DNA of 47,977 bases from Deltaproteobacteria bacterium. Lineage in GTDB: Bacteria; Myxococcota_C; UBA6777. The translations under genes and the position numbers were made by a program. The stretch lies in contig PCBK01000096.1 of the NCBI GenBank assembly GCA_002731275.1, positions 1-47,977 of the forward strand. The letters run 5' to 3'. Below, piece by piece: positions 16,468 to 45,549 of the stretch. Numbering within the stretch: the stretch's first letter is position 1; every line of letters starts with the position of its first letter. Below the pieces are notes generated by a model, which was not told where the DNA came from, did no database searches, and saw only the letters and a program-made list of their open reading frames with translations.

Positions 16468-17370
16468 TCAGGAGCGCAGTTGTTCAAGCATATTACTGGC
16501 GCGACTGACGAGCTGCTCAAGTGCTTGGATTGTATCTTCTCGGGTTTCGTCAGTGATCGTTTCGACGTTGTGTTTTTCCAGAGAGCGCAACCACTTTGCG
16601 TACACGACATGTTGTGCTTTGGGTGTGTTCGCATTGCGAACACGCTCACCCTTCTCTTCTTTGGGTTGTTCTGTGTTCTCGTCACCTTTGCGGTATGCGA
16701 TCAGAGACTGTCTATCGGCCTCTCCATCGATCACTTGCTGCAGTAGTTCTTTGCGTTCATTTTCGTCTTTGATTTTGGCCAACTCTTCGGCAGTGCGGAC
16801 GGGGATGTTGTGTTCCTCGACGGCTGCTTGGATCTCGGGGTATCGAAGTAGGCTGAGCAGAGAGGACACATATCCGACGCTTTTGCCTATTTTTTGGGCG
16901 ATGGCGCGGACAGTGTAACTGAGTTCATCTTTGAGTTGTTGGTATGCTTTGGCTTCTTCGACAGGGGAGAGATTTTCGCGTTGAACATTTTCGGTGATCG
17001 CGATCTCCAGCATTTGTTGATCGGAGAGTTCACGGATCTCGACGGGGAGAGTTTCGAGTCCTGCGAGTTTGGCGGCACGTAGTCGCCGCTCACCGTAAAC
17101 GATCTCAAGCTTACGTCCCTTTTGGCGTGCCCACAGATGACCATAGAAGCCATGTTCTTTAATGGACTCTGCTAGCTCCTCGATATGATGGTCGTCAAAG
17201 ATGCTTCTGGGCTGGTATGGGTTGGGGATGAGACGTGCGAGTGGGATCTCTTCGATATCTCGCTGTTCATGTTGTGTCTCCTCTTGACCAATATGAGCGA
17301 GAAGTCCCATTGCTCCGAGTGATTCTTTGGCTTTTGCGCCTGTCAGAGATGCTCGTTTTCTTTTGCTCAT
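16468..17370 (-). CDS. parB: ParB/Spo0J-family partition protein
   Basis: Centromere-binding CTPase-type ParB of 300 residues. The N-terminal ParB/Srx domain has IPLARLIPNPYQPR (42-55), the GERR nucleotide motif at 93-96 (VYGERRLRAAKLAG) and ENVQRENLSPVEEA (127-140). The helix-turn-helix at about 153-172 reads VRAIAQKIGKSVGYVSSLLSLL, where canonical ParBs have RSxxxVANLLRLL; the following segment (IPVRTAEELAKI) also differs from the usual SxGHARALL. That fits a different DNA site. The C-terminal 40 residues are a dimerisation-type helix region. Its ATG overlaps the parA stop by 4 bp. A copy of the palindrome lies in the gene itself at 16627. It likely loads at the array upstream of parA and forms the segregation complex. 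Confidence 0.92.
   Translation of the reverse strand: MSKRKRASLTGAKAKESLGAMGLLAHIGQEETQHEQRDIEEIPLARLIPNPYQPRSIFDDHHIEELAESIKEHGFYGHLWARQKGRKLEIVYGERRLRAAKLAGLETLPVEIRELSDQQMLEIAITENVQRENLSPVEEAKAYQQLKDELSYTVRAIAQKIGKSVGYVSSLLSLLRYPEIQAAVEEHNIPVRTAEELAKIKDENERKELLQQVIDGEADRQSLIAYRKGDENTEQPKEEKGERVRNANTPKAQHVVYAKWLRSLEKHNVETITDETREDTIQALEQLVSRASNMLEQLRS
16627..16641. promoter_or_regulatory. parS-like palindrome inside parB
   Basis: GTTCGCATTGCGAAC with flanking T and A, a perfect match to the array consensus. It encodes VRNAN at residues 244-248 of ParB, in the linker before the C-terminal domain, where sequence is least constrained. Confidence 0.75.
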
Positions 17371-18143: not shown

Positions 18144-18578
18144 CACTTGCTCCTTTTCGGGTCTTTTTTCAAGGATTATGTAGCTCTATTTGCCCATGTA
18201 CCAGTCGACACTCTCGCAATCCCTCGGAGTATGTGTGCGGTTGAATCGATCAAGTTCAGGCGGTCTCTTTTTGTTTCTTTGTGTCTCTATCTTCTCCACA
18301 AAAAACCATACTCACATGCAGAAATCAAGCTTTTACATCACTTCTTTTTTTGTGCCCAAAAACTTCTTTGTATTTCAAAATGTTATTTTCCTACTCTTTT
18401 TTCTCCTCATTCATCCTCTGTTCGCATTGCGAACATCTCCTCCGACAGACACACTTTCATGTTCGCATTGCGAACACACAAAAAAGATCACTTCGCAAGA
18501 TCGACCTCTTTTTTGAGGACAACTCTCTGACCACCTCGTCACTCTGTCTGGGATCAGGGCAAGTTGCTACTTTTTATT

Positions 18579-18850
18579 GGGCGAGTTCCCACTCGCCCTT
18601 ACTGCCGCGCTTCGCTTTCCGGGCGTCCTTTTTGGGGGAGTTTCCACTCGCCCTTTACTGGCATGCTCCGTTTGTCGGGCATCCTTTTTGGGCGAGTTCC
18701 CACTCGCCCTTACTGCCGTGCTTCGCTTGTCGGACATCCTTTTTGGGCGAGTTTCCACTCGCCCTTACTGGCGCGCTCTGCTTGCCCCTGCTGACGCGCT
18801 CCGCTTGTCTCTGCTGCCGCGCGTCGCTTGGCTTTGGCTGCCGCGATTCG
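18579..18850. repeat. 55-bp tandem repeats with 8+4+8 hairpins
   Basis: Four hairpins GGGCGAGT-TYCC-ACTCGCCC start at 18579, 18634, 18690 and 18745, a step of 55-56 bases. Each is followed by TTACTGSCGYGCTYCGYTTG and then a CATCCTTTTT-like run. Beyond 18765 only the CTGNCGCGCTTCGCTTG part continues, about three more times. The second hairpin has one mismatch in the left arm. No gene overlaps. It belongs to the dispersed mosaic family also found near 21.5-21.95, 45.5 and 46.8 kb. Confidence 0.8.
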
Positions 18851-18859
18851 CTTGGCATA

Positions 18860-18926
18860 GTGGGTTTGCCACCCACACCCGCCTGGGGTTTATTCAACCC
18901 CAGACCCCTACGATACTGCGTATCGT
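18860..18926 (-). repeat. Three-hairpin repeat block, copy B
   Basis: Three hairpins in a row: GTGGGT/ACCCAC (18860-18876), GGGGTT/AACCCC (18885-18901) and ACGATAC/GTATCGT (18910-18926). Read on the minus strand it aligns almost base for base with 46822-46888; the outer hairpin there is ACGATGC/GCATCGT, so a G-C pair became A-T with both arms changed. Confidence 0.75.
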
Positions 18927-20817
18927 TTGTTTTGCGCTCTTCGAGCACTATGTCACGGAGGACAGATCCCTGTCTGATACAAAGCATGACATATATATAA
19001 ATGATAGGAGAGGCTGTGTTCGCATTGCGAACAACACAATGATGAGATGGCCTGATCATGTTCGCAATGCGAACAGGTTCAGAACAATGGGATGGTGTGA
19101 TCATCTCCCCAACCTTCTTGTTTGGATGTTGAGTGTTCGTATTGCGAACAATACAAGTCCCATCAAGCTCCCATCGAACGCGTAAGACATACAACATTTT
19201 TGAAATGCGTTTTTGAGAGCTGTCACATTGTGTCAGTGGTCAAGGCTTGTTCGCATTGCGAACATCTACCCCTAATTGTATGCAGGTTGCGAACAACATC
19301 TTTCGTGGCGTTCTTATGCTCTTGGGGTTGTTCACATGACAACACCTCCAAGTCACATGGGAACTTGCGCTACAGACGAACATGATCCAATGCTTGAGCT
19401 GTTGAATCTTTGGTTGTGTTCGCATTGCGAACATCTTCCCTTACGATATGCTAGCTGCCTGGAAAGTCTTTCCTCACTGTGCGAATTGGATGTTCGCAAT
19501 GCGAACACCATAACGAAAGTGTATGTGGACCGGGACCACTCACATTCATTGGGATGAACAGATGGGTTTTTTGATGATGTTCGCAATGCGAACAAGTGCG
19601 AGAGATACACTGAAAGGACTCGAAATGGTAAATGTGGTGGCATCATACCTAAGGTTGTGGAACCAAGTGAATTGAATGTTCGCATCATGAAAAGTCTCAG
19701 AACAACGACACAGTATGGCCAAAAGAGGATACTTATGTGTTCGCATTGCGAACATCGCAAAGAGAGAGTGTCTTGGATCCTGAAAGAGGGGGACTGGTTG
19801 TTCGCATTGCGAACATAACCCCATAACGACTCCATTCGTGCACTAAAAAGATTCGGAACTGTGTTCGCTTCTCGTGGATGTTCTGGTTATGGTGAGATGA
19901 GGATAAAGAATGTTCGCAATGCGAACAAGTCATTTGAGCAATGAGGAAAGATGTTCTTTTTGGGAGCTCCTGGAACATGTTGGATGTTCACAATGCGAAC
20001 ACATAAGTCTTTTGTGGATGAGCTGTGGAGGGACGCACTGGCAGTGTCTGGATGTTCGCAATGCGAACATATTCACTTTTTGTGATGATCTGCGGAGAGA
20101 TGTTCTGGCGGTCTCTGGATGTTCGCAATGCGAACATATTGTGGCAGACTGCGAATGTTTTTGGAGGGGGAGGGGGTCGAGCGATGTTCGCAATGCGAAC
20201 ACTATGTGAGTGGCAACAAGTATCTTGGTGCAGGGACGCAGACCAATCATTGTTCGCAATGCGAACAACAACGAGGAACTTGATCGTGGAGGATAAGGAT
20301 GTTCGCAATGCGAACAAAAATGAGAAGCTTGATCGTGAAGGGGGAGGATGTTCGCAATGCGAACCACAATGTGCCCAAATAAAATAACTGACGCAGAGTG
20401 TTCTGCGAAATCTTTGTGTGTTCGCAATGCGAACAGTTTTCTGTAGTAGGTTCCTTTCTATGACGAAATAATGGTTTGGTGAGAGCTTTGTGTGTTCGCA
20501 ATGCGAACAATCTCGTATCTAAAGCAAGACAGATCATGTGGAGTGTTTTGTGAGATCTTTGTGTGTTCGCAATGCGAACATTCTTCTGTAGTGGGGGCCT
20601 TATTGTGACGAAAGAATTGTTCGGCTAGAGCTTTTTGTGTTCGCAATGCGAACATGTTATGGAGAGGAGCATGGGGGCAAAGCTGTTCGCAATGCGAACA
20701 ACAAGTCACATAATGAAGAGGCATTGAGGAATGTATTGTGATATGGGAGGGGGAAATCGATTCTGTTGTGATGGAGGTTTCCAGAGCAATCCATAGTAGG
20801 AGAGGGGAGGGGGGACT

Positions 20818-21485: not shown

Positions 21486-21776
21486 CAGGAGGGGGATAGG
21501 CGAGCGTAACGAGGAGGACCGCATTTGAAGACCTTCGACCTAAGGCTTAGTGTCTTTGGGAGTTGCTGATGGTCTCCTGCAAAAAGGTTGTTTGGCAAGC
21601 AAAGCGCGGCAGCCTACGCCGAAGGCGTCAACAGGAGAGGGAAGCCCAGCGTAGCGAGCTGGACCGCATTTGAAGGCCTTCGGCCTAAGGCTTAGTGTCT
21701 TTGGGAGTTGCTGATAGTCTCCTGCAAAAAGGTTGTTTGGCAAGCAAAGCGCGGCAGCCTACGCCGAAGGCGTCAA
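21486..21776. repeat. 145-bp tandem direct repeat
   Basis: Two near-identical units with a step of 145-146 bases (CAGGAG marks at 21486, 21632 and 21777; GACCGCATTTGAAG at 21517 and 21662). Each carries ACCGCATTTGAAGRCCTTCG, a TTAGTGTCTTTGGGAGTTGC stretch, AAGCAAAGCGCGGCAG and CGCCGAAGGCG. A third unit begins at 21777 and then diverges into the hairpin block that follows. The 21295-21974 gap (680 bases) holds only this and the next two entries plus the promoter area of the 20818-21294 gene. Confidence 0.8.
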
Positions 21777-21850
21777 CAGGAGGGGGAAGCAAGCGGAGCG
21801 CGCTTGGGGACCGCCTCCGGTCCCCGGTAGAAAGGCAAGCGAAGCGCGCC
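21761..21850 (+). repeat. Mosaic hairpin repeat, copy C
   Basis: Starts with ACGCCGAAGGCGTCAACAGG, contains a perfect 8+4+8 hairpin GGGGACCG-CCTC-CGGTCCCC at 21806-21825, and ends with GGCAAGCGAAGCGCGCCAGC. It aligns along its whole length with the reverse strand of 45550-45642, where the hairpin is GGGGATGC/GCATCCCC: three neighbouring base pairs differ and all remain paired. Confidence 0.78.
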
Positions 21851-21879
21851 AGCCAGAGGCAAGCAGAGCGCGCCAGTAA

Positions 21880-21952
21880 GGGCGAGTGGCAACTCGCCCC
21901 ATGAAAAGTGACAGCTCGCCCCATAAAAAGTGGCAACTCGCCCCATGAAAAG
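21880..21952 (+). repeat. Short direct repeats with GGGCGAGT hairpin
   Basis: GGGCGAGT-GGCA-ACTCGCCC hairpin followed by three units of about 25 bases of the form AARTGRCARCTCGCCCCATRA. The hairpin is the same as in the 18.6-kb tandem array, read on the other strand. Confidence 0.7.
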
Positions 21953-21974
21953 GATGACAGCCCCCAGAGAGTGG

Positions 21975-24900
21975 CTACTGCTTGAAGCAACTTGCGTGAG
22001 CCATGGCACACATGGGTGCGCATCGGTAGAAAGTCATGACTTCAGGTGTGAAGTTTTTGCCAGCCCGAGACAGTGCTTTGACCTTCTCGAGTATTTGTTT
22101 GCGGTAGGCACATGAACAATCACAAACGCTCTTCTTTTTGGACTTGCACTTTTTATAAGGTTCGAAGCAAAACCCCTGACAAAGCATCAGTCGAACATAA
22201 TCAGATGTTGGTTGCTTTTTGGGATTCTTGATGCGCTCGGCTTGCAGCTTCTCAAAAAGCTCCTTGTCCTGACATGTGCATGGACAGCGTCCTCCCATGA
22301 CGCCACTGTTCGCATTGCGAACGGCAGGTGCTTGTTGGTTCGAAGCTCTCTCTTGTGAGGCTTGCCAGATGCGACCGGACGCGAGCATGAAAGGTTGTTC
22401 ATACTTGCGGAAGGTTTGGATGGCTTTGGTGTCCTTTGTCACAAAAGATTTGTCACCCGTGTAAAAGGGAGGGAAGGGGTGGTTGATATCAAGGTCGATA
22501 TACTTGAGCTTTGGACACGTAAAGTTCTCCTTGAACGCCTTCATTGAACGGAAATCTAAGGCGCTGAGTTGACATAATCGACCTGTCAGACGAGCGCGAA
22601 AACTCTCTTTGGAGAACTCGTAGATCACAAGGGTTGCAAAATTGTCGTGTGTTTCGATGTGTTCTTTTTGCTTGTCCAGCGCATTCTCTTGTTTGTAGTA
22701 TCTGTCTTTGACGAGTTCCTTTTGGAGGCCTTCTTTCATACGATCGATGTTCTTCCAACGGCGCTTGTGTTGTTGAATTTTCTTGTGGATAGCTTCAAGC
22801 TTCTTCCCGAATGGGATGTATACCTTGGTGAGGTCGTTTGGCACACGTCCCATCATGAAGCCCTTAAAGGTTCCTGTTTTCCCAAATGGGATGACGGACT
22901 TGGGTCTCATAAATGTGAACGTCGCGAGTGTCTTAAAGTCAACCTCGCCGAGCTTGTTGGAGGTCGCCTTCTCCAAGACCTCTTTGAGCAAGACAGCGTA
23001 CAAACCGTTACCTCTGTACTTCTTCATATTTTTGGCGATGAGTTTGTTGAAGAGATTCCCTTCAAAGAGGTGGCGAACAGGGCGTTTGGCTGAAAACGAT
23101 TTCAAGTCGCCAGAGAGGGGGATCGAAGACAAAGAATTTCCTGCCAACCAAAAGTTCAATGTCGTCAACATATACTTTGTCGGAAGGAGCTTACTTGGTG
23201 TTCTGTCCGTTTTGCGTCTGGTTTTCTTCTTCGGTATTTTCTTCTGTTTGCGAAGGTTATTCTTTGTGGACTTCAGTGAAAATGTCAGGAGCGCTGTGGC
23301 GTAGCCTTTGAAAGACTCTGTCCTTGCTCTGATACAAATGCGAGAGCTATCTTTTCCGCTGCAACGGATCAAGAGCGGTGTTCTAGAGACGACATAGACC
23401 GTTTCGAGGGTTGTTTGTCCCGGTCGCAAGCGTTGTGCAGGGACATGCCATGTGTGTAGTTTTTCTGCCGAAAGAGGGCGGACAAGGCAATGAGAGAGCA
23501 AGCTCGTCATCCTGTCTTTGCCTTTGCCTGGACGACGACAGTAGTACATACTCTGCGAAGAGGTGTAAGCCATCCCCATATGTAATTGTGAGTGGGGGAG
23601 TTTTTTGGGAAGGGTTTCACCAAGGATTTTTACGGAGACTGCGCGGTTGGGAGGGAGTCCTTTTACTTTGACTCGTATACATTTTCCTGTCCATAGACCA
23701 AGATTGACAGCAACTCGGTATGAAGATCTTGTTAAAATAGATGCGTCAAGCTCAACTTCTTCGCAACCTCCAAACCACTGGGCAAACCAACGATTTGTTG
23801 CTGAACCATGCTGAAAGAGCGATTTGAGCATCGGAGGTTTTTTGAGGTTGGTCGCGTTAAAGAGCAGCTCACCCATACCAACGGGATCAATTTGTCGGAC
23901 TGTTTTGGCTGCTGTGTGTGTGAGAAACGTCGCGAAGATGTGGGGGAGGGCGCGGCGCTTGTCGAATATAAAATGTCGACTTGTCAAAGACAACACATGA
24001 TCGCGATGGAGGCTGCGAACGAGCGAACGATCATACATGATCTTCTTCAGGTATCGGAAAGGGTATTTCTCTTTTGGGTAATAATATTCTGCGAGATGTT
24101 GCCAGAAGGAGTTGGTCTTGTAAGGGAGAACATACAAAGGGTTTTGTTTTCCGTTTTTGAACAAGACATCTTCACTTGCGTCGAGAGGGTATTTGTAGAA
24201 GTTCCGAACTCCCATGCGCTTCGCATATGTGAAGCGATTCCAATTGACTCCTGCGATGCGTTGGGTTTGCCGTCGCAAGTGTTTGATTAGATGAAATCCC
24301 ATCGCGTTAGCGGTGCTCTCTTTCCACCAGAAAGGTAGCGCTTCATAACAAGGAGCGCCTTGACCTGAGCGAAAACAATCCTTTCCAACAGGTCGGTGAG
24401 TGCATGGATTTCCGTTCGGTGATGCGTATTGGACAATGTGCATCACTTCGTGTCCAATGGTTTGGATAAGTTCTTCTGGGTGGTGGTTGTAATTTGTAAA
24501 CGCGGGGTCCATGAAGGAGATACTCATGACCAATGACTTACTTGATGTCGGACATGATACACAGGCAACTTCTGCCCCACCGAGCTGATACTTTGTACTA
24601 CCCATGCCAGGAAAAAAGACCTTCACAAAATGATCGGGTGTCTGAAGCATCCAACGACGAGGGAATGGGTACAAATGCATACGATACATCTCAAAGGTAT
24701 CTCGAAAGACCATGGAAAGTCCGGAAAGTTGACGACTTGTTAATGGTAATGGGGTCTTTCTCTTTGTGTACGATGGTGAGCGAATCACACCAACACCACC
24801 AAGAAACTTCATACCTATCTCAAATCCAAGCAGCTTTTTCTTCTCAAAGGAGACTTTGGCCCGGTTCCACGAGCCAATAGGATGATGTCCGTCTACAGGA

Positions 24901-24989
24901 CACTCCAGTCGGTGGGACCACGCCGTCTCAGAACATCCAAGGAGCAACAGACAAACAAGCCCACATCCAACAAATATTCGATGTCTCAT
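21975..24989 (-). CDS. Large lipoprotein with HExxH zinc-protease site and duplicated CxCxC module
   Basis: A 1004-residue envelope protein. GGAGG lies just before ATG 24989. The signal peptide ends in a lipobox LLGC with C19, so it should be lipidated. H180-E-x-x-H184 in TIGHEVMHIVQY, followed by E224 in WWKESTANAM, is the gluzincin (thermolysin-like, MA clan) zinc arrangement; cysteines nearby (C196, C205, C214) may form disulfides. Residues 250-880 show no family I know. The C-terminus has two copies of CxCxC-x29/30-C-x3-C-x6-C starting at C902 and C956. A palindrome of the parS type encodes VRNAN at 890-894, just before the first module. The gene overlaps its upstream neighbour by an ATGA. 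Likely a surface or periplasmic metallopeptidase; substrate unknown. Confidence 0.75.
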   Translation of the reverse strand: MRHRIFVGCGLVCLLLLGCSETAWSHRLECPVDGHHPIGSWNRAKVSFEKKKLLGFEIGMKFLGGVGVIRSPSYTKRKTPLPLTSRQLSGLSMVFRDTFEMYRMHLYPFPRRWMLQTPDHFVKVFFPGMGSTKYQLGGAEVACVSCPTSSKSLVMSISFMDPAFTNYNHHPEELIQTIGHEVMHIVQYASPNGNPCTHRPVGKDCFRSGQGAPCYEALPFWWKESTANAMGFHLIKHLRRQTQRIAGVNWNRFTYAKRMGVRNFYKYPLDASEDVLFKNGKQNPLYVLPYKTNSFWQHLAEYYYPKEKYPFRYLKKIMYDRSLVRSLHRDHVLSLTSRHFIFDKRRALPHIFATFLTHTAAKTVRQIDPVGMGELLFNATNLKKPPMLKSLFQHGSATNRWFAQWFGGCEEVELDASILTRSSYRVAVNLGLWTGKCIRVKVKGLPPNRAVSVKILGETLPKKLPHSQLHMGMAYTSSQSMYYCRRPGKGKDRMTSLLSHCLVRPLSAEKLHTWHVPAQRLRPGQTTLETVYVVSRTPLLIRCSGKDSSRICIRARTESFKGYATALLTFSLKSTKNNLRKQKKIPKKKTRRKTDRTPSKLLPTKYMLTTLNFWLAGNSLSSIPLSGDLKSFSAKRPVRHLFEGNLFNKLIAKNMKKYRGNGLYAVLLKEVLEKATSNKLGEVDFKTLATFTFMRPKSVIPFGKTGTFKGFMMGRVPNDLTKVYIPFGKKLEAIHKKIQQHKRRWKNIDRMKEGLQKELVKDRYYKQENALDKQKEHIETHDNFATLVIYEFSKESFRARLTGRLCQLSALDFRSMKAFKENFTCPKLKYIDLDINHPFPPFYTGDKSFVTKDTKAIQTFRKYEQPFMLASGRIWQASQERASNQQAPAVRNANSGVMGGRCPCTCQDKELFEKLQAERIKNPKKQPTSDYVRLMLCQGFCFEPYKKCKSKKKSVCDCSCAYRKQILEKVKALSRAGKNFTPEVMTFYRCAPMCAMAHASCFKQ
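22308..22322. promoter_or_regulatory. parS-like palindrome inside the metallopeptidase gene
   Basis: A perfect 15-base core GTTCGCATTGCGAAC (the outer A on the right is G). It sits 1.6 kb beyond the array and encodes an unstructured linker of the host protein. Confidence 0.65.
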
Positions 24990-27333: not shown

Positions 27334-27356
27334 GTCCATATGTGCAATATTTGGAC
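27334..27356. promoter_or_regulatory. Imperfect palindrome in a divergent gap
   Basis: GTCCATAT-GTGCAAT-ATTTGGAC, eight-base arms with one mismatch, in the 27137-27458 gap between divergent genes. Could be an operator. No clear promoter hexamers or RNA gene were found in the rest of the gap. Confidence 0.25.
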
Positions 27357-27458
27357 GGGCTTCGACGTTTCTTCATATTGACAGGGCTGAATTTGGCCTT
27401 TAGTCTCCTTATGTCGTTCATATCCGAGACCTTTTGCCACAAAAGATGTGAGAGTAAG

Positions 27459-30400
27459 ATGACCACAACACAAAAGAATAAGCCCGGTTCACTCGATAAA
27501 AAGGGCATGAGTGATTATACAGAGACACAATGTTCGCGACAGCTGTATATCAAACTTGGCGAACATGACCCTCGTTGGATACAAAGGGATATTCAAAAAA
27601 ATACTCATTTTACAGGTTCAGCCCTGACCCTTGCAGCCTCTGGGAAGCGCTACGAACAAAAGGTCTACACTATTTTGCGTCGCCTCTTTCGTCAACAAAC
27701 CCATTGCACACTCAAGCCACCCGCCAACAAGGAGGTGATAGAGACCTTTCTTGACCCAAGGCTTGCAAAGCGCCTTCACCAAGAGGTAAGAGGAGAGGCA
27801 CAACTCCTCTTGGAATACGAGTGGCCTCTTTGTGATCAATTTGTCAGGCGGGTCTTTGGACAACAACCTGATGAAGAGATCGCTACCCTTGGTAATCAGT
27901 ATGGACGTGTCTTGCGGCCTGATATTATGCTACTCCATCCCATTCCAAAGGGGCAAAAGGCTCCTCTTAAATGTCTACTCCCTGGTGGGAAAGCAGCATC
28001 TTTTTCACCTACAGCGCTTCAAGGACGTTTTGGTATCTCCATTCTCGATATCAAATACACGCCTGATGAGCGGGTTGGACGTCGGCACTTTGCTGAGCTG
28101 CTCTTTTATATCCACGCTCTCACAGAGTGGCTTCACGAGACACAGTTGGATGAATTCTTCTTTGTACCATGTCACGGACACGGTATTCTGGGGTTTCTCG
28201 AAGAGGATACACTCTATGATCTGACTCTCGATGATCTTCTTTGGCGAAGTCCTGACGAACTCTCCGGAAAACATACACCTAAGATCAGCCCGTTGCTATG
28301 GGAAGACACACATCAACTCTTTACCCACGCCGAGAAGACCGTTCGTACACTTTGGCAGCTCGCAAAACAACGAACACCCATCGAAGAGATCCCTCTTTGT
28401 GTACAACCCGCTTGTGGTCGGTGTCCGTTTATCGATGATTGCATTTCCACACTCAAAGGTACAACACCAACGCAGTCTGATAGCTGGGATATCCGGCTCA
28501 TTCCCTATCTCAAGACTGCTGTCGCGCAACAACTCAATGAACATGGTATTTACACTGTTGGTGAGCTATTGCAAGGTATCGAGGAGATTCCACTCGGAAA
28601 CACACCTGTCCCCCTTCATGCTGAGATTCCCGCTCTCAAACTACGGGCACAAGCACTCTCCACACAACGCGCTGTCTATCCCGAAGGCGAGCATACATCC
28701 CTGTCTCTTCCAAAATACATCGATATGGCGCTTGTCTTCAATCTCGAAGTTGACCACACCAACGAACTTGTCTTTGCCTTTGGCTTTTACTTGGACACAA
28801 AACAACCTTCGCCAAAACTCCAGAGATTACACAACGATTGGTGGAGAATGTGGCGTTCTGTGCTCCGAGGGGAAAGGGAGTTACAGGATATCAGCTCTGT
28901 CCTTGACCTCGAAGCGTTGGAGCTTGGATGGCACAAAGGTGATGATTTTTCCGATAAACTGTCGCTTTTACTTCAAGAGATGGAGAGGCTGCTTCGGACT
29001 TTAGAAGCTGATGGTGTTTTGATTCTTCGTGCGGTTGGTGAGTCTTATCAATTTGGTTCACAAGAATACACCACGCAAAAGTATCCTCTTGTACGTTGCC
29101 AGTATAGCTATGTCAGCGGTGGGATTGAGCCAGAGCACGAATATATGTTGCTTAAAAATATGATCCAGCAGCTTCATCGTGTGATGAGAATGTGTTCCTT
29201 GACAGAGCTACTTGTGACGACAAAGCACGAGACTTACGATTCTTTATATCATGAGAACTTCGCGGGGTTTTATTGGTCAGATGAACAAGTCGACCATCTC
29301 CGTGCCCTCGTCGAACGTCATCTCCCGGCACTTCAACAAGATCATGCTCTTTCAAAAACATTCTACGAACTGGTTGATTGGATGACGCCTGCCGATTCTG
29401 GTGTTCGGCACCACGCACTCCATAAGAAAATGTATGATTTACGTGAGTTTGTCGGTTCATCTGTCGGACTCCCACAGATCATCAACTACACATGGCACCA
29501 AACAAGACCTCTGTGGAAGAAAGATTTTGAAGCCAACCCATACTTTTGGACACCACACTTTAACCAGATGGATTTTGGGATCTGGCACAGTACAATCGAA
29601 GAGATCGACACCAATGAACGTTCTCAAAAAGAATCGGATATTCGCGATCAACTTGTCCTGAAGATGAGAACGCTTCACGAGATTTTGCGTCACTTCCACA
29701 AAGAAGCCAGCGACGTTATCCCAAAAGAGTCCAAGACGATGAGCAGTCAGGACTTCCAGCGAGATAGACGCAATCGTCAATATCACCAACTCGGCTCTTT
29801 GTGGCAGGGATACCACCAACTCAACGCGGCGATTAGCGCGCTCACCAATGACGCCGCGCGGTTGACGTGGCCTGAACAAAGTATCGCAAAGTTACAAGCT
29901 GGTAAGCTCTCTGGGATGACCATCAAAATAGATGATCGAGATGGAAAAGACTATGAGGTCGTGAACTTTTCGTTGTTGGGCCTGTCCAGCCATATGAAGA
30001 TCTCCGTGAAAGACCGTGTACTTTTGCTTCCACGCACAATGAGGGACAGTCATGCGTTTCCTTTTCACAATATGGGACGCTTGAGCAAGTTGATCGTCGA
30101 AGACCTCGTCTGGGAGCCTTCCGAGCAGGGATATTGTGTGACCGCCGTTCGTGAACTCAAGAAGCGAAAAGAAGGGGACAAGGAGACACTCCACTCCTTT
30201 ACGGAGCTGTATGCACTCTATGATGCTGAAGATTGGTTTGTCTATCCTACAGATCTGGACGTTTGGACGGGACGCTTGGCATTGAACGGGGATGCTTTGC
30301 TGAGACGATATCAGCTCGGATATTCGTGGTTAGCAGAGCGTTTGATGTTCTTACACGGTTTGGGAGGTGAGCATCTGGAAGCTCCCAAAACACTCAATGT

Positions 30401-32153
30401 GCATGCCGCAGAACTCTACACCTACGCACCACAGTTACTTCCTCAAAAGCGTGATTGTACGGGAGAAGACGTTTTGACTCCCATTCGTTTTCGTCCTGAT
30501 TCATCTCAGCAAGAAGGAATCTTACATGCGTTATCTTCGTCCATCTCATGTTTACAGGGACCACCCGGGACAGGAAAATCACAGACCATCATTGCCCTCA
30601 TCGATGAATTTATCGATCGACATAAAGGTCCAGCGAGAATTTTGATCTCAGCCTTTTCTTACAGTGCCTTGCAAGTGGTCGTGCAAAAGCTGCTCGACAG
30701 TCGCTATGGTGATGGGCCGGCACCAGATCCCACACAATTGAGCGATGCATCGAGATTGCCTATTTTCTATGCTTCGTCCTCTGAATCGGAGAGTTTTGTA
30801 CACGATCCAAATCAACAGGACGTAATGCATTTGTCTTTGTCATCGAAAGGTGTCCATCTAGATGGTGAGCGGATCGATTTTAGGAGGGGATCGAGAAAGG
30901 ATAAAATCTTTGAGCGTATGTTTGCTCACAAGGGGTTGGAGGGGGATGGTAGTTTTGTGTTGTTCGCGAATGCTCATACTTTATATCATCTTGGGACGTT
31001 GAGTAAGGCGAACAAGAGGCGATTGGTGCATGAGGATTTTGGTTTTGATTTGATCATCATTGATGAAGCTTCACAGATGCCAGCGAGTTACTTCACGGCG
31101 ATTGCACAATTCGTTCATCCATTTGAGGCGCGTCTTGTATTGCCAAAAGATGAAGATGCGTTGAAAAGAGAGATTCGTTGTGGTGCACCAGAGCTCTCGA
31201 TTGAAGGTGTGCCTTCATCAGATGACCTGACACATGTTGTCCTCGTTGGAGATCAGGAGCAGTTACCACCAGTCCAGCAGATCGAACCTCCTCGCAAGTT
31301 GAAGCCAATGCTTGATAGTGTGTTTCGGTACTTTTTGGAGGTGCATCATGTCCCGAAGCATCAACTCTCCTACAATTATCGATCACACAAAGACATTGTG
31401 AGATGTGTACGTCGGCTGGCGATTTACGATCAGTTACACGCCTTTCATCAGGATGATGCGTATTTGTCGGCGATTCCAGATGTGTTACCTGATACGATTG
31501 AGGCTCCTTGGTTGCGGCAGTTGTTGGGGCGAAGGCAAGTTGTTTCGACATTGATTCATGGGCGTCAGTGGGATACAGCGTTGAGTCCTTTCGAGGCGAA
31601 GTTGACCGCTGATGTTGTTCTGGCTTTTTTTGCACAGATGGGTGTGGACTCAGATGAACGTGAGCGACAGTTTTGGCAAGAAGACGTGGGGGTTGTGTCA
31701 CCACACAACGCGCATGGTCGCTTGATCGTACGTGAGATTGCGGAGCGTCTGTTATCGGGAGTTGGGGCGAGGACCTATCTGCCGGAGACAGAGTTAATGG
31801 AGTGTTTGTCAACAACTGTGTATTCTGTGGAGAAGTTTCAGGGTTCGGACAGGCGTTTGATTGTGGGGAGTGTGGGTGTGTCTTCGGTGGATCGTTTGGC
31901 GGCGGAGGAAGGGTTTTTGTACGATATGAGTCGCTTGAATGTTCTGATCTCTCGTGCAAAACACAAGATGTTGTTGATCTGTAGCCAGCAGTATTTGGAT
32001 TACGTTCCACGGGATAGGGATGTGATGACCGTCGCAGCTCGTGTGAGAGAGTATGCCTACGATTTGTGCAATGAGAGTCAAGTGTACGATGTCCCCTTTG
32101 GTTCGGGGAGTGAGTTTATCGAGTTGCGTTGGATGGTCTCCAAAGATCCATGA
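27459..32153 (+). CDS. RecB/Cas4-like nuclease fused to SF1 (Dna2-type) helicase
   Basis: A 1564-residue DNA-processing enzyme. N-terminal PD-(D/E)XK nuclease: PD in LRPDIMLL near 152-154, DIK in SILDIKYT near 196, and a Cys cluster C314/C319/C322/C328 (CVQPACGRCPFIDDC) like the Fe-S cluster of Cas4, AddB and Dna2. C-terminal SF1 helicase: Walker A GPPGTGKS at 1034-1041, Walker B IIIDEAS with D1202, motif III VGDQEQLPP, motif IV/V regions (LSYNYRSH; STTVYSVEKFQGSD; NVLISRAKHKMLLI). The layout matches the TM0106-type RecB nuclease-helicase fusions. ATG at 27459 has GAGAG upstream; an ATG at 27507 and a longer frame from 27342 are alternatives. It converges on the hipA/hsd run. Likely a defence or repair helicase-nuclease. 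Confidence 0.85.
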   Translation: MTTTQKNKPGSLDKKGMSDYTETQCSRQLYIKLGEHDPRWIQRDIQKNTHFTGSALTLAASGKRYEQKVYTILRRLFRQQTHCTLKPPANKEVIETFLDPRLAKRLHQEVRGEAQLLLEYEWPLCDQFVRRVFGQQPDEEIATLGNQYGRVLRPDIMLLHPIPKGQKAPLKCLLPGGKAASFSPTALQGRFGISILDIKYTPDERVGRRHFAELLFYIHALTEWLHETQLDEFFFVPCHGHGILGFLEEDTLYDLTLDDLLWRSPDELSGKHTPKISPLLWEDTHQLFTHAEKTVRTLWQLAKQRTPIEEIPLCVQPACGRCPFIDDCISTLKGTTPTQSDSWDIRLIPYLKTAVAQQLNEHGIYTVGELLQGIEEIPLGNTPVPLHAEIPALKLRAQALSTQRAVYPEGEHTSLSLPKYIDMALVFNLEVDHTNELVFAFGFYLDTKQPSPKLQRLHNDWWRMWRSVLRGERELQDISSVLDLEALELGWHKGDDFSDKLSLLLQEMERLLRTLEADGVLILRAVGESYQFGSQEYTTQKYPLVRCQYSYVSGGIEPEHEYMLLKNMIQQLHRVMRMCSLTELLVTTKHETYDSLYHENFAGFYWSDEQVDHLRALVERHLPALQQDHALSKTFYELVDWMTPADSGVRHHALHKKMYDLREFVGSSVGLPQIINYTWHQTRPLWKKDFEANPYFWTPHFNQMDFGIWHSTIEEIDTNERSQKESDIRDQLVLKMRTLHEILRHFHKEASDVIPKESKTMSSQDFQRDRRNRQYHQLGSLWQGYHQLNAAISALTNDAARLTWPEQSIAKLQAGKLSGMTIKIDDRDGKDYEVVNFSLLGLSSHMKISVKDRVLLLPRTMRDSHAFPFHNMGRLSKLIVEDLVWEPSEQGYCVTAVRELKKRKEGDKETLHSFTELYALYDAEDWFVYPTDLDVWTGRLALNGDALLRRYQLGYSWLAERLMFLHGLGGEHLEAPKTLNVHAAELYTYAPQLLPQKRDCTGEDVLTPIRFRPDSSQQEGILHALSSSISCLQGPPGTGKSQTIIALIDEFIDRHKGPARILISAFSYSALQVVVQKLLDSRYGDGPAPDPTQLSDASRLPIFYASSSESESFVHDPNQQDVMHLSLSSKGVHLDGERIDFRRGSRKDKIFERMFAHKGLEGDGSFVLFANAHTLYHLGTLSKANKRRLVHEDFGFDLIIIDEASQMPASYFTAIAQFVHPFEARLVLPKDEDALKREIRCGAPELSIEGVPSSDDLTHVVLVGDQEQLPPVQQIEPPRKLKPMLDSVFRYFLEVHHVPKHQLSYNYRSHKDIVRCVRRLAIYDQLHAFHQDDAYLSAIPDVLPDTIEAPWLRQLLGRRQVVSTLIHGRQWDTALSPFEAKLTADVVLAFFAQMGVDSDERERQFWQEDVGVVSPHNAHGRLIVREIAERLLSGVGARTYLPETELMECLSTTVYSVEKFQGSDRRLIVGSVGVSSVDRLAAEEGFLYDMSRLNVLISRAKHKMLLICSQQYLDYVPRDRDVMTVAARVREYAYDLCNESQVYDVPFGSGSEFIELRWMVSKDP

Positions 32154-32173
32154 TATTGTGTCGGTCATTTTGT

Positions 32174-32188
32174 GTTCGCATTGCGAAC
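32174..32188. promoter_or_regulatory. parS-like palindrome between convergent genes
   Basis: Perfect TGTTCGCATTGCGAACA (full 17 bases) in the 92-base gap between the helicase-nuclease stop and the 3' end of the hipA-like gene, 11.5 kb from the array. Confidence 0.7.
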
Positions 32189-32245
32189 ATCAAAGTTCTT
32201 TTTGATGTGAGTGTGATTCTTGTGGGTGACTTGAGCTCTGTGGAT

Positions 32246-33493
32246 TTATTCGCCACGGAGGAGGCGAAGTCGCTTCCAGTGTTGTTTCAAGGCTTGCCTT
32301 GCCTCCTCATCCAACCTCAATGTTCCTTCCAGTTGACGCCAAGCGTCCATCATTTTGCTCACAGTGTTTTGGACAAATGCTTTGATTTCGTCTTCTGGTT
32401 TTGTGATACCGATCTTTTTGTAGAGTCTTACAAATGAGGCTGAGGTGACTTTTTCCCACTGTTTTTTTGAGCGTTTGTCAAAGTTAAGTGCGAGATCCTC
32501 GTTTTCAAAGAAAGAGAGGGTTGAGACAAAATCATAGGCTGGCGAGAGCCTTGCTTTGTATCCGTCGGGGTAAATGAGAGCCCAATTCTTGAGGTGAGCG
32601 TCACCGTTACCGGAAAGGATGATGAAGATGACTCGGCGAAGGTATTCTTCCAAGTCATCCTCGGATTGGGTGATGGAGGAGATTATCCTTCCAATGGATA
32701 AGTAGTTTCCTTTTTTGAACGCGCGTTCTGGGTAAACATTTAAGATTTGAGCAAAGTCTTCGAAGTGAATACGTCTTGGGTTCTTTGAACGGTCGAATCG
32801 TTCGATTGCATAGGCCCATTGTTCATCGCCAAAAAAACTTTTCTCTGGTAAACCCTTAATCTCATTGAGATCCAGCAATAAAAAATCTGGAACATCGATA
32901 CCACTTTCTCTAGCCCACGTCATCATAGACCATTCATTCTCTGGGACTCTGGGAAATTTCTGTCCCGGAAGTTTGATAATCCAATCGCCTTGGACACCCT
33001 CTCGTGGGATCGTGAGCCCCTTGCCCTCTTTGAATGCCGATAGCTTGAGTTGTAGGTTCGTCATCGAGAATTTATGGGGATTGTCTTCTGGTGCTGTGGA
33101 TTCTTCCTCTTCAAACGTGTTTGTCTCTTCATGTTCGTATTGAAGGAGGTCTTGGAGTTCTGTCTCTTCGGCAACGACTCTCACTGCACCTGGAAGTTCC
33201 TCTCCCAAATGAGCCAGCAGGGAGAAATCATTGTCGATATCTGTTTGGAGTTGCTTGATGATAAGCTCCCTCAGCAATCCATCAGGGAGTAGGTTCGAAA
33301 ACCACTCAGGGAGTCGTGAGCGTGAGCTATGGACTTTGTGGAGATCCTCGATAAAGACCTGGCCAAGAACAGGTCGGGGGTAGAGTTTTTTGTAACTTTC
33401 CAACAAGCGAAACTCAATCCTACTTCCGTCTGATAGGGTTAATCTTCCGACTTTTGTGTCTTGTATGTACACAACCAAGGTGTGGGAGTTCAT
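32246..33493 (-). CDS. HipA-family Ser/Thr kinase (toxin-type)
   Basis: A 415-residue HipA-type kinase. N-terminal subdomain 1-105 (VGRLTLSDG ... WFSNLLPDGLLRELI), then the P-loop segment KFSMTNLQLKLS with S143 at the place of the autophosphorylated serine of E. coli HipA, K174 in DWIIKLPG, catalytic GNGDAHLKN with D298 and N303, and metal-site D321 in SPAYDFV. All active residues are kept, so kinase activity is expected; HipA phosphorylates glutamyl-tRNA synthetase, but the target here is unknown. An acidic insert lies at 115-140. No HipB-type helix-turn-helix gene is next to it. AGGAAAAG precedes ATG 33493. It aligns with the first 410 residues of the upstream neighbour, so the two are tandem paralogues. 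Confidence 0.85.
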   Translation of the reverse strand: MNSHTLVVYIQDTKVGRLTLSDGSRIEFRLLESYKKLYPRPVLGQVFIEDLHKVHSSRSRLPEWFSNLLPDGLLRELIIKQLQTDIDNDFSLLAHLGEELPGAVRVVAEETELQDLLQYEHEETNTFEEEESTAPEDNPHKFSMTNLQLKLSAFKEGKGLTIPREGVQGDWIIKLPGQKFPRVPENEWSMMTWARESGIDVPDFLLLDLNEIKGLPEKSFFGDEQWAYAIERFDRSKNPRRIHFEDFAQILNVYPERAFKKGNYLSIGRIISSITQSEDDLEEYLRRVIFIILSGNGDAHLKNWALIYPDGYKARLSPAYDFVSTLSFFENEDLALNFDKRSKKQWEKVTSASFVRLYKKIGITKPEDEIKAFVQNTVSKMMDAWRQLEGTLRLDEEARQALKQHWKRLRLLRGE

Positions 33494-33676
33494 GTTCTTT
33501 TCCTATGCCAAGTTGTTTATTTAGTAGCCTGTAAAGTGTTATTGGTGCTCAAGTAAGTAATCTGAACGGATATTGTGTGAATGTTGATGTCTAAGCCCTC
33601 GTTTTTATGACGTTACTTTTGGGTTCGTTTGTGTGTTTTTTCTCCACTTTCTTTGGGATACTCGCGACGCTTTTGA

Positions 33677-35962
33677 TCAAGCATCCTTTTGAAAGGGAAC
33701 ACAAACGAATTGTATCCAGTCTTCGTCATGGCTACCTATTATTTTTTGAATACGCCATACTTGCGAGTCTTCAAAGCGGACAAGAGAATCACCTTCTCTA
33801 AAAGAGGCTGAGTACTCTACTTGCCAAAGTCTCTTGTCTAGTTTGACTAGATCGTAAGCCCTTATAATTTGCCCACGAACGCTGTAAAGGACTTCTCGAT
33901 CCATAAGGACTTGGACGGTTCGTTTGGTGCTTGTCTGCTCTCCAACAAGTTTTCCCCAATGTGAATGGTTCGTAGAGAGTACAACTTCTTCAAATCTTTC
34001 TTCTTTTTTTACGATGTTTTCGGTGTGAACAACACGTAAAGGTATATACTCACTAGGTAGATTGCGGTCCTCACTTAAAGTGAGCATGTCCCAATCGTCT
34101 ATGTTGTTGGAGAGAGGTCCTTTGGGGTCTAATTGCTTAAGGAAGTCTCTAAAAGGAAAAGGCAACCCTCGAAGATATAGCATCGTCCAAGGTTCCTTTT
34201 TTAGAAAAGCATACGATCCTCTTGTGAGATTTCTGTTGGCAAATTCTTGATACGGACCATGATGGGCTCGCCATTTTCTTGTGTTTACATCGAAAATAAG
34301 TGCAAGAGTTTTTTTCTCCGAAGATTCTCCTTTTCCAGATAACAGCTGTGTACCAGCTAATGCACCGACCAGTAAACCCACGAGGATCCCCGCAGGACTC
34401 GTTTTCAGGATCACTGAAGCAGCAGCGCCTAACACCGCACCTGTTAAAGTCTCCCCTGTAAGTGGACTGCTTTCATCGTCGTTTGCAAGGCTAAAACGTG
34501 CGATGTTGGATTCCTCATCAATGGCGATGTTTAGGAGTTTTCCACCAACGAGAGCTCTCAGTGATTGATCTTCTTGTTTTCGTAACTCGATGGGCGATGA
34601 GTCCTTTGTGAGTTCGTACACTTCATTCGCGAAGACATCCAGGTAGTCATACTCATTCTTGTATTTGTTGAGTACTTTGGCGATATCGCTTAGACGAAGC
34701 TGTGTCGGGGGTCGAACCCTCTCCTTCATCAATGGGATAGTTCCCCAATGTACACGAAGACGTTCTTTTGCTTCTTCTTCTAGGGGCAAGTCATCTTCTA
34801 GTGTAGACCATGCTGTCATTATTTCAACGACTGTATTTTCTATGAAAATTTTGATCTCGTCTTCTGTTCTCTCCTCAAGGAATCCCAAAGATTGAAGCTT
34901 TTGAAACATTTTCACAAAAGAGCGAGCTGAGACATCTTCCCACCGTTTGGACTTTTGCAAGTTGAGCGCGAGTTTATCGTTGTGAATGTATTGGATTGTT
35001 GAAACAAAGTCGTAAGCAGGAGAGAGGCGGGCCTTTACATTGTCAGGGTAAATCAAAGACCAATTCTTGTGGTGTGCGTCGGCATTGCCTGAAAGGATGA
35101 TGAAGAGCAGTCTCCGAACGTATTCCTCAAAGTCTTTCTCAGAGTTTGTCACTGCAAGCAGGATCTTTGCGATGGAGTTGTAACTGAACTTGTCGTATTT
35201 TTCCTGGGGATACAGACCAAATATCTGGGCAAAATCTTCAATGTGAACACGTCGTGACGGTTCAGGACGATCAAAACGTTTGATTGCGAAGGCGAGTTTT
35301 TCTGATTTGTGAAGATGTTCTGGAGGCAAACCCTGGATATCGTCCGTATCAAAGAGGTCGAACTCAGGTACATCAATGCCACTTTTTTTGGCCCAAGTCA
35401 TCATGGACCATTCGTTTTCTGGTACTCTCTTGTATCTTTGATCTGGTAACTTGACGATCCAGTCGCCACCAATTCCCTTTGCTGGTATTGTCAGACCTCG
35501 ATCTTTTCGAGATGCTGAGAATTTGAGTTGTACACCTGCGAGAGAGAACCTCAGCGTCTGAGCATCTTCCTCTTCCTCTGTTGCCATACCATCTGTAGAG
35601 TTCTCTGTGTGTTGGTAAAATCCTTCAAGGGGTTGCTCTGGTAGGACACGTACAGCTCCGGGAAGATCTTTGCCGAGATGATGGAGCAGAAAGAATTCTC
35701 GCTCTGTGTGAACTGCTGCTTGCTTGGCGACGAGCTCTCTCAACAAACCCTCTGGAAGGAGGTTGGAAAACCAGGGGATGAGTCTCATTCGTGTTCGGTA
35801 TTCTTTATCGAGATGATCAAGGAAGGTCTGTCCCAGTGTGGGGCGTGGGACCATTTGTTTGTAGCTGTCCAACAGTCGAAACTCGATTTCGCCTTTCTGG
35901 GACAGGGTTAATTTTCCGACAGGTTCTTCTTGCAAATATACAAACATTGTTTTGGTAGACAT
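33677..35962 (-). CDS. HipA-type kinase fused to a glycine-zipper segment and novel C-terminal region
   Basis: A 761-residue fusion. Residues 1-410 are a complete HipA kinase: P-loop serine S140 (FSLAGVQLKFS), GGDWIVKLP, catalytic GNADAHHKN with D295 and N300, and D318 in SPAYDFV. Residues 410-500 are a helical linker. About 505-540 is a Gly/Ala-rich hydrophobic stretch (GAVLGAAASVILKTSPAGIL and VGLLVGALAGTQLL) like a glycine zipper, which could cross or perforate a membrane. Residues 545-761 are soluble, beta-rich and unknown to me. ATG at 35962 follows the DUF262 stop by 3 bases, with the GAGGA of the preceding Asp/Glu tail as ribosome site, so the two genes form an operon. A TTG at 35968 is an alternative start. 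Confidence 0.82.
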   Translation of the reverse strand: MSTKTMFVYLQEEPVGKLTLSQKGEIEFRLLDSYKQMVPRPTLGQTFLDHLDKEYRTRMRLIPWFSNLLPEGLLRELVAKQAAVHTEREFFLLHHLGKDLPGAVRVLPEQPLEGFYQHTENSTDGMATEEEEDAQTLRFSLAGVQLKFSASRKDRGLTIPAKGIGGDWIVKLPDQRYKRVPENEWSMMTWAKKSGIDVPEFDLFDTDDIQGLPPEHLHKSEKLAFAIKRFDRPEPSRRVHIEDFAQIFGLYPQEKYDKFSYNSIAKILLAVTNSEKDFEEYVRRLLFIILSGNADAHHKNWSLIYPDNVKARLSPAYDFVSTIQYIHNDKLALNLQKSKRWEDVSARSFVKMFQKLQSLGFLEERTEDEIKIFIENTVVEIMTAWSTLEDDLPLEEEAKERLRVHWGTIPLMKERVRPPTQLRLSDIAKVLNKYKNEYDYLDVFANEVYELTKDSSPIELRKQEDQSLRALVGGKLLNIAIDEESNIARFSLANDDESSPLTGETLTGAVLGAAASVILKTSPAGILVGLLVGALAGTQLLSGKGESSEKKTLALIFDVNTRKWRAHHGPYQEFANRNLTRGSYAFLKKEPWTMLYLRGLPFPFRDFLKQLDPKGPLSNNIDDWDMLTLSEDRNLPSEYIPLRVVHTENIVKKEERFEEVVLSTNHSHWGKLVGEQTSTKRTVQVLMDREVLYSVRGQIIRAYDLVKLDKRLWQVEYSASFREGDSLVRFEDSQVWRIQKIIGSHDEDWIQFVCVPFQKDA

Positions 35963-35964
35963 CT

Positions 35965-37599
35965 TCAATCATCCTCATCTTCATCATCGTCATCATCTGC
36001 GAGTAATGATAGTAAGCTTGGGCGGTCTGTTTCTCCCCACCGTGCGCACTTTGCGAAAAATTTTCTGCTGTACTCTTCAATGGTTTTTGCACGAAGTTCG
36101 AGGAAGGTCTCTTCGTCGCCATCGCGAAGAGCTTCCAAGGCGTCCAGATCGATCATGTGAGTTTGTAGCAAAGCAGGATTGGCTTGGAGTATTTGTTTTT
36201 TGAGTTGTTTTTGTTTGGGGTAGAAGATGCGGTTGGCAATGCCATTGTAGTGCTGGAGGTTTTTATCTTGCACAAGTGTTGGGATGAGCAAGTGTCCTGA
36301 TGGTGTTGTGTCGAGTGAAGAGGGAAGGATGAGTTTCTCTGTCTCCAGGTTCTTCGGCTTGTGTGTGAATAAGGCCAACGTGAACAATTTACTTGTTGCG
36401 TGGTTAAAGCGGAAGGGAGCATCGATATCCAGCAAGGCCTCTTCGTTTTCGGGGAGTTGTTGAAGGAGCGATTGTACAGAGGCTTCTTCATCCTCAGAGA
36501 TACTTCCCAAGTATGCAGGTTCTGAGAGCGTAAAATTCCGAAGTGCTTTCGTGAGTGAGAGACGCCATAGCCATCGACTGAGTAAGTCGGTGCTCCTTGA
36601 TGAAGGAGAGGGATGGTGGTGAAAGAATTTTGCGAGAAATACGAAGGGTTGTTTGTAGGGAAGTAGGTCAAAATGTGGGATGTGAGCGTGACTCTTTAAA
36701 AAACCTATCGTGCGTCGTGTTGCCTCTTCGACGTTTGTATATGCCTCAAGTGCTTTCTCGCTGGTCAGTTTTTGTTCACTGGAGACAAACTTCGTTTTCT
36801 TTTGGCGTCCCAAGAGTGCGGACATGACTTTATTGAGTGTATCTTGGGGAAGTTCGCCAAAGCCAAGGGGACGGAGATTTCGGGAAATATCATCAAAGCT
36901 ACCTGACGACTCCTCACTTGTCGTGCTGTGAATGGCATCAAAGACTTCTGATTCTTCGAGGCTTTTTCCTGCATGGTTGATGCGAGCAAAAACATCACGG
37001 ACAGTTTTTTCAGAGGTCGTGGTAATCGTGTAAGTCGGGATTTCATACTCACGAATTCTTTTCCCGACTCGTATCGCTTTTTGTGTTCTTGTGGGGCTGG
37101 GTTGCTTTTTATAGAGCCACTGCAGCAAGTCTTCTGAGTCAAGCACTTGCGTCATTGGGAGCCAGCGTGTAGGGTCATCTGTTCGTTGTTTTTGAGATAT
37201 ATTTTTGAGGCCTTCCTCATCCAGGTCAAAGTAGAAGTCGTGTTTGTTTCCTTTGTGTTCTTTGACAAGGGACAGGACAAGGGAGACGAGGCGTTGTTGT
37301 CCATCAACTACCCAGAGCGCGTCTGCTCGTTCGGGGACCTCTATTGTTAACTCTCCGGCTGTAAAGATGTCTGCTTTTGCTGGTGTTTTCCAAAAAATCA
37401 ATGTTCCAACTGGATACCCTCGGTAAAGGCTGTCGAGCAGGTTGAGAGCATCTTGTGGTTCCCACTTAAGCTGTCTCTGGAAAGAAGGGATCCTTATATA
37501 GCCATCTTCGACCCTGCGAATAAGATCCTCGACTTTGAAATTTCGAGCCTCAGGGGGTCTTTTTAGATTGTCTGTTTGCTCATCTCGTGTCAGTTGCAT
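35965..37599 (-). CDS. DUF262 (ParB/Srx-fold) protein
   Basis: A 544-residue DUF262 protein. ATG at 37599 has AGGAAG upstream. Family marks are IPSFQRQLKWEPQDALNLLD at 37-56 with LYRGYPVGTLIFW after it, and VVDGQQRLVSL at 97-107; the DGQQR motif is the NTP-binding/cleavage motif seen in GmrS- and DndB-like proteins. The C-terminal half is helical and lacks the HNH (DUF1524) nuclease that completes GmrSD, and it ends in a run of Asp/Glu (DDDDDEDEDD). It sits first in an operon with the HipA fusion gene. Role in phage or plasmid defence is inferred from the family and the neighbours. Confidence 0.85.
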   Translation of the reverse strand: MQLTRDEQTDNLKRPPEARNFKVEDLIRRVEDGYIRIPSFQRQLKWEPQDALNLLDSLYRGYPVGTLIFWKTPAKADIFTAGELTIEVPERADALWVVDGQQRLVSLVLSLVKEHKGNKHDFYFDLDEEGLKNISQKQRTDDPTRWLPMTQVLDSEDLLQWLYKKQPSPTRTQKAIRVGKRIREYEIPTYTITTTSEKTVRDVFARINHAGKSLEESEVFDAIHSTTSEESSGSFDDISRNLRPLGFGELPQDTLNKVMSALLGRQKKTKFVSSEQKLTSEKALEAYTNVEEATRRTIGFLKSHAHIPHFDLLPYKQPFVFLAKFFHHHPSPSSRSTDLLSRWLWRLSLTKALRNFTLSEPAYLGSISEDEEASVQSLLQQLPENEEALLDIDAPFRFNHATSKLFTLALFTHKPKNLETEKLILPSSLDTTPSGHLLIPTLVQDKNLQHYNGIANRIFYPKQKQLKKQILQANPALLQTHMIDLDALEALRDGDEETFLELRAKTIEEYSRKFFAKCARWGETDRPSLLSLLADDDDDEDEDD

Positions 37600-37782
37600 C
37601 TTCTTCCTCGCAGCTGAAAGACCAAGACCACTTGTACAGTACAACGAGCATACGTAATGACAAGTTCGGTCGCAAGGCAGAAGTTCTCGCCCAAAGACCC
37701 CATCAAGTCAAGAACCCAATTTCCACAAATCTTTACAAAGAGATCGCTTGAGTTGGAGTCCTTGCAAGTCACCATTGTATTT

Positions 37783-45292: not shown

Positions 45293-45549
45293 CGAGGTGT
45301 CCTTTGTGCGGGGAGTGTGTCTACGTGTTGCAGGAGCAGGTATGTCTTTTGGTTCTGTGTCAAAAGAGAATTGTGTTTGTTGCCAACTTTTGTGACCCAT
45401 GTGTGTGGCTGGCTCCTGTCGTCTTCTTGTACATCGTGCTGGGGATTGTTGTACCGAAGTCGGTCAGCGAAGTCAACTTCCACTTGCCCTGTGGCTGCCG
45501 CGCTTCGCTTGCCTTTGTCTGGCTACCACGCTTCGTTTGATTCTGCTTG

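Follow-up and report, generated by a model that had tools for sequence, protein, structure and literature searches.

The DNA analysed here (a stretch of 47,977 nucleotides, called the window) very probably carries a ParABS locus of the Spo0J type, in which the centromere site parS and the ParB that reads it have been rewritten together and in which parS forms a dense cluster of 17-bp sites with half-sites spaced by one base (Table 1). Few DNA sites in bacteria are as conserved as parS, and the protein that reads it was held to have fixed contacts.

The site is the palindrome TGTTCGCA-W-TGCGAACA (TGTTCGCAWTGCGAACA), which occurs 24 times upstream of parA, as claimed in a preliminary description of this DNA; 21 copies are exact and three (at 19134, 19985, and 20349) carry one change each. 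The array occupies 18419-20700, one base off the earlier 18420-20699, and its first copy lies 273 bp upstream of the parA start. A copy inside parB had also been noted and is found at 16626, and to these are added sites at 22307, at 32173, and on contig C115. Altogether, the window contains 27 sites (23 exact and four with one mismatch); in shuffled window sequence the mean is 0.14 and never more than one site is found, and the chance expectation is about zero. All 24 array copies agree at 13 of the 16 palindrome positions, and the central base is A in 16 and T in eight. Since no flanking base exceeds 0.6 bit, the repeat unit is exactly 17 bp. The spacings are irregular (41-169 bp, plus one gap of 557), and a search for helical phasing among them gave nothing strong or convincing. 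Divergence is seen in the spacers but not in the palindromes, and this points to selection acting on the palindrome rather than to a recent tandem duplication. Short GGGCGAGTTCCCACTCGCCC-type repeats interrupt the array at the 557-bp gap (window 18560-18990) and recur downstream of the array (21860-21970), and a stretch of about 130 bp is tandemly duplicated with few differences at 21520-21790.

Table 1. Positions in the window of the partition genes and the 17-bp palindromes
Feature	Position	Strand	Basis
parA, Soj-type Walker ATPase, 259 aa	17367..18146	-	AAA_31 E=9.6e-58
parB, 300 aa, ParB_N + HTH_ParB	16468..17370	-	ParB_N 8.7e-26, HTH_ParB 2.1e-17 (Pfam)
ParB recognition-helix segment GKSVGYVS, residues 162-169 of this protein	16864..16887	-	computed from ORF
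24-copy array of 17-bp palindromes TGTTCGCAWTGCGAACA	18419..20700	no strand	pattern search and array analysis
Array starts 1-12	18419, 18460, 19017, 19059, 19134, 19248, 19417, 19491, 19578, 19738, 19799, 19911		
Array starts 13-24	19985, 20053, 20120, 20185, 20251, 20300, 20349, 20419, 20493, 20564, 20638, 20684		
Exact 17-mer within the parB coding sequence	16626..16642	no strand	pattern search
17-mer with one change, within ORF 21975-24989	22307..22323	no strand	pattern search
Exact 17-mer, intergenic, helicase ORF on one side and hipA on the other	32173..32189	no strand	pattern search

Genome-wide counts of the 17-mer and of canonical parS had been proposed as a check on the preliminary description. 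The whole genome (10.75 Mb, 200 contigs) holds 28 copies of the 17-mer, which is not evenly spread, as 27 are on the contig of the array and the remaining one is at the 3' end of purA (contig C115); a reversed-pattern control gave no matches. In 381 genomes from outside the lineage, a search for the degenerate form TGTYCGCANTGCGRACA gave a single match. Canonical parS, the 16-bp even palindrome TGTTNCACGTGNAACA, is absent from this genome, where the site is instead 17 bp long and odd-centred. Its search returned one match with three mismatches in the window (chance expectation 0.4) and, with up to two mismatches, two matches in the whole genome against 11 in the reversed control. In four relatives, at most one mismatch being allowed, four matches in total compare with three in the control, which is not clearly above it. 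The earlier claim of a non-canonical, odd-centred 17-bp site beside parAB is borne out. The array as a mobile or plasmid repeat was rejected, because it has no match among 72,556 plasmids and no pairs of the 17-mer were found in viral contigs; a close relative of this ParB was likewise sought in viral contigs and none was found. A defence-like island spans window positions 27342-45400 (a large AAA helicase, two HipA kinases, a GmrSD_N protein, and type I restriction-modification genes), and the exact 17-mer at 32173 falls within it.

The gene of the ParA Walker ATPase adjoins parB and overlaps it by four bases, both are transcribed leftwards, away from the array, and the palindromic sites are concentrated near this pair. 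By Pfam, ParB has the ParB N domain and a helix-turn-helix (HTH), and its C-terminal helices are predicted only. It scores 141 bits against TIGR00180 (NCBIfam), and its best solved match is B. subtilis Spo0J (6sdk). An AlphaFold model from four sequences (mean pLDDT 74.7) confirms the fold only, with fold matches to 6t1f and 7nfu. Among the five ParB-like genes of the genome, this is the only one found with parA beside it; the other four (on contigs C89, C77, C13, and C119) have HTH regions of other kinds and no recognisable ParA motif within the stretch read. Contig C89 (L058, G000) has 37% G+C and carries genes for a 2144-aa repeat protein and a divergent ParB-like protein, the latter without parA; it is possibly a mobile element or an assembly contaminant.

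In Caulobacter ParB, the DNA contacts are Q162, G170, K171, S172, R173, N178, G201, and R204, of which R173 and G201 are described as absolutely conserved among extant ParB orthologs (Jalal et al. 2020, PMC7383237). The contact positions were aligned for this ParB, three relatives (G003, G002, and G004), and 94 ParBs of other lineages, from which one row (L049), a mis-extracted reading frame, was left out. R173 and N178 occur in 94/94 of the other proteins, Q162 in 90/94, G201 in 83/94 (the rest mostly S), and R204 in 89/94 (the rest K). This ParB has V, S, V, R, and E at positions 173, 178, 162, 201, and 204, and so lacks the conserved R173 and G201 of canonical chromosomal ParB. All four lineage proteins have V/I162, V or K173, S178, R201, E204, and R184; the 173/201 pair is V/R in this ParB and K/R in the three relatives. 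The recognition-helix segment, which starts with GKSR in most other ParBs, is GKSVGYVS here. R201 recognises C6 of the half-site when K or R stands at 179 or 184, as Jalal et al. 2020 showed (PMC7383237), and the half-site of the array, G1 T2 T3 C4 G5 C6 A7, has C6 as this rule predicts. In a quick tree with an arbitrary root, the four lineage ParBs form one clade (SH-aLRT 100) on a long stem, apart from Noc and the sampled ParBs, which makes R201 look convergent with Noc.

The CTPase motifs GERR and ENxQRE are present, and the CTP-hydrolysis residues are kept as E94 and E127 (E78 and E111 of B. subtilis). The base-contacting C motif, G[VI]xQP (ParB residues 74-78), reads GF[YF]G[HV] in the four lineage ParBs. 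All four have G[HV] in place of QP; of the 94 others, 80 have the Q and 94 the P. With this replacement, the nucleotide preference should not be assumed and might differ in these proteins. A loss of CTP hydrolysis through the altered C motif is unsupported, as the catalytic glutamates are retained.

The phylum is represented in the genome collection by five genomes of a single family, four of which have a related parAB. Identity to this ParB is 50% for G003, the nearest relative with a parAB, and 43% each for G002 and G004; in G001, which belongs to the genus of G003, no matching ParB and no sites were found. An odd-centred perfect palindrome, TGTCCGCAGTGCGGACA, lies 174 bp upstream of parA in G003. 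Between this site, TGTCCGCA-N-TGCGGACA, and ours there is a single symmetric difference: position 3 of the half-site is C instead of T, and the other arm has G instead of A. The G003 genome holds four exact copies (one upstream of parA and three elsewhere) and one with a single change; the three other exact copies are intergenic, and those on C53 and C5 lie between genes. Comparison of the two genomes thus gives a 17-bp odd-centred layout with the half-site GTNCGCA (G being half-site position 1) that is common to two genera. The recognition helices of the two proteins differ only at 173 (V/K) and 174 (G/S), and this one comparison is suggestive of a pairing between residue 173 (V/K) and site position 3 (T/C).

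G002 and G004 belong to another genus, and their nearly identical recognition helices carry the family signature K173, R184, and R201 as in G003. No GTCCGCANTGCGGAC-type cluster was found in them genome-wide and no G003-type site beside parA; therefore, either more than residue 173 determines the site or their parS is missing from the assemblies. A near match in G002, TGTCCGCACTGCGGTCA, common to G002 and G004, was rejected as coding sequence. Palindrome counting in parts of the genomes also suggested GCGGTTCGCGAACCGC as the parS of G002 and G004, which was rejected as a dispersed repeat; with at most one mismatch it has 117 and 122 copies in these two genomes and none in the other three. The copies are embedded in longer dispersed palindromes, for example GTAGGGGCGGTTCGCGAACCGCCCCTAC, often at contig ends (L175:12581, L176:18081, L184:5283). 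An array comparable to the one described here was found in no relative.

The pairing of ParB with these sites, which had been drawn from position only, is now supported because the array adjoins parAB and is confined to the locus, canonical parS is absent, the G003 palindrome covaries, and the contacts are rewritten, including R201 with C6. The likeness to known sites also goes beyond the TGTT/AACA arms to which the preliminary description had limited it, as the C6 of the half-site is shared with sites of the Noc type. ParB dimers would be loaded at the 17-bp palindromes, with each HTH reading one TGTTCGCA half-site and with one base pair more between the half-sites than in canonical parS. ParB would presumably then close as a nucleotide-dependent clamp and spread, and ParA would move the ParB-DNA complex. 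With its 24 copies, the cluster may offer ParB a large platform for loading, comparable to the cluster of 22 sites in Myxococcus xanthus. We infer binding, clamp loading, segregation, a chromosomal role, and proximity to oriC for this system.

A tentative proposal, to which we give slightly less than an even chance, is that an isolated lineage re-coded the centromere of its main chromosome; the contacts R173 and G201, nearly universal elsewhere, would have been lost, ParB would now read a one-base-spaced site in which half-site position 3 varies between genera in step with residue 173 (T3 beside V, C3 beside K), and ParB and parS would have been caught changing specificity. The gene dnaA is on another contig (C35). 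The ends of the array's contig (window 1-150 and 47866-47977) are interspersed repeats found on many other contigs, so the assembly breaks there, and contig-end overlap as a means to place the locus beside dnaA was rejected for this reason. The locus could instead be the partition system of a secondary replicon (a chromid or megaplasmid), for which the ParB-site pairing would still hold; the window has no dnaA, no gidA or gidB appeared among the ORFs scanned, and chromosome II has an odd-centred parS in V. cholerae and a non-canonical one in B. cenocepacia (PMC7022226). We consider this unlikely, as no other ParB-like gene in the genome was found with parA nearby, related parAB genes are shared by 4/5 lineage genomes, no canonical parS is left for a second, chromosomal system, and the plasmid collection contains no match to the array.

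The rewritten partition site is also favoured over readings that detach the 17-mers or the protein from segregation. A two-fold palindrome fits any dimeric HTH protein, and since ParB binding is inferred here, the copies might be operators or iterons of another protein (a replication initiator or regulator) that stand beside parAB by chance. The covarying site beside parA in G003, the agreement with the ParB/Noc rule at position 6, the copy inside parB, and the absence of canonical parS make this very improbable. It seems barely credible that this ParB is a Noc-type protein serving in nucleoid occlusion and not in segregation: the top NCBIfam model is nucleoid_noc, yet its 169.6 bits are well below the cut-off of 315, and against the Noc-like R201 stand an adjacent and overlapping parA, sites that are clustered and not scattered, and a separate clade. 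From the Noc set (Q173, K179/K184, R201, and no ParA partner), this ParB shares only R201 and the basic character of residue 184, and Q173, N178, K179, and R204 of Noc are missing.

Taken separately, neither feature of the site is new: M. xanthus has a dense cluster of parS (PMC3899335), and the ParB sites of V. cholerae chromosome II have an odd centre (PMC7022226). What is new is their combination in a ParAB of the Spo0J type whose site, spaced by one base, and contact surface have both been rewritten, consistently in two genera for the site and in three for the protein. A literature search of open-licence papers found none describing the 17-bp site. The lineage would be a natural case in which the site core, the half-site spacing, and the ParB contact residues have all changed. 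With its relatives, it would also allow the way in which centromere specificity evolves to be tested in vitro, for which short DNA and a single protein would suffice, and it may help to explain genomes that have ParB without a recognisable parS.

Among known systems, M. xanthus has 22 parS packed into 3 kb that lie about 4 kb upstream of its parA (PMC3899335), and resembles this locus in having about two dozen sites densely clustered upstream of parAB in a large-genome bacterium; its parS, however, is the canonical even-centred 16-mer TGTTCCACGTGGAACG, whereas the site here has 17 bp, an odd centre, and another core. Noc and its site, NBS, share R201 reading C6, aided by a basic residue at 184, but NBS is even-centred and starts with A1, and Noc has Q173, N178, and R204 and no ParA partner gene beside it (PMC7383237). 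Canonical Spo0J/ParB with parS (TGTTNCACGTGAAACA) has the same ParB domain order, GERR and ENxQRE motifs, adjacent parA, and GTT/AAC-armed palindrome. In contrast to it, the core and spacing differ here, Q162, R173, N178, G201, and R204 are replaced, and QP has become G[HV]. An odd centre is also seen in the KorB operator (TTTAGCSGCTAAA). The odd dyad centre, earlier presented as setting this site apart, has a precedent in parS2 of V. cholerae chromosome II (NTTTACANTGTAAAN; PMC7022226), which as a site resembles ours in being a non-canonical palindrome with a free central base; parS2 differs in its 15-bp consensus, its sequence, and its place on a secondary chromosome.
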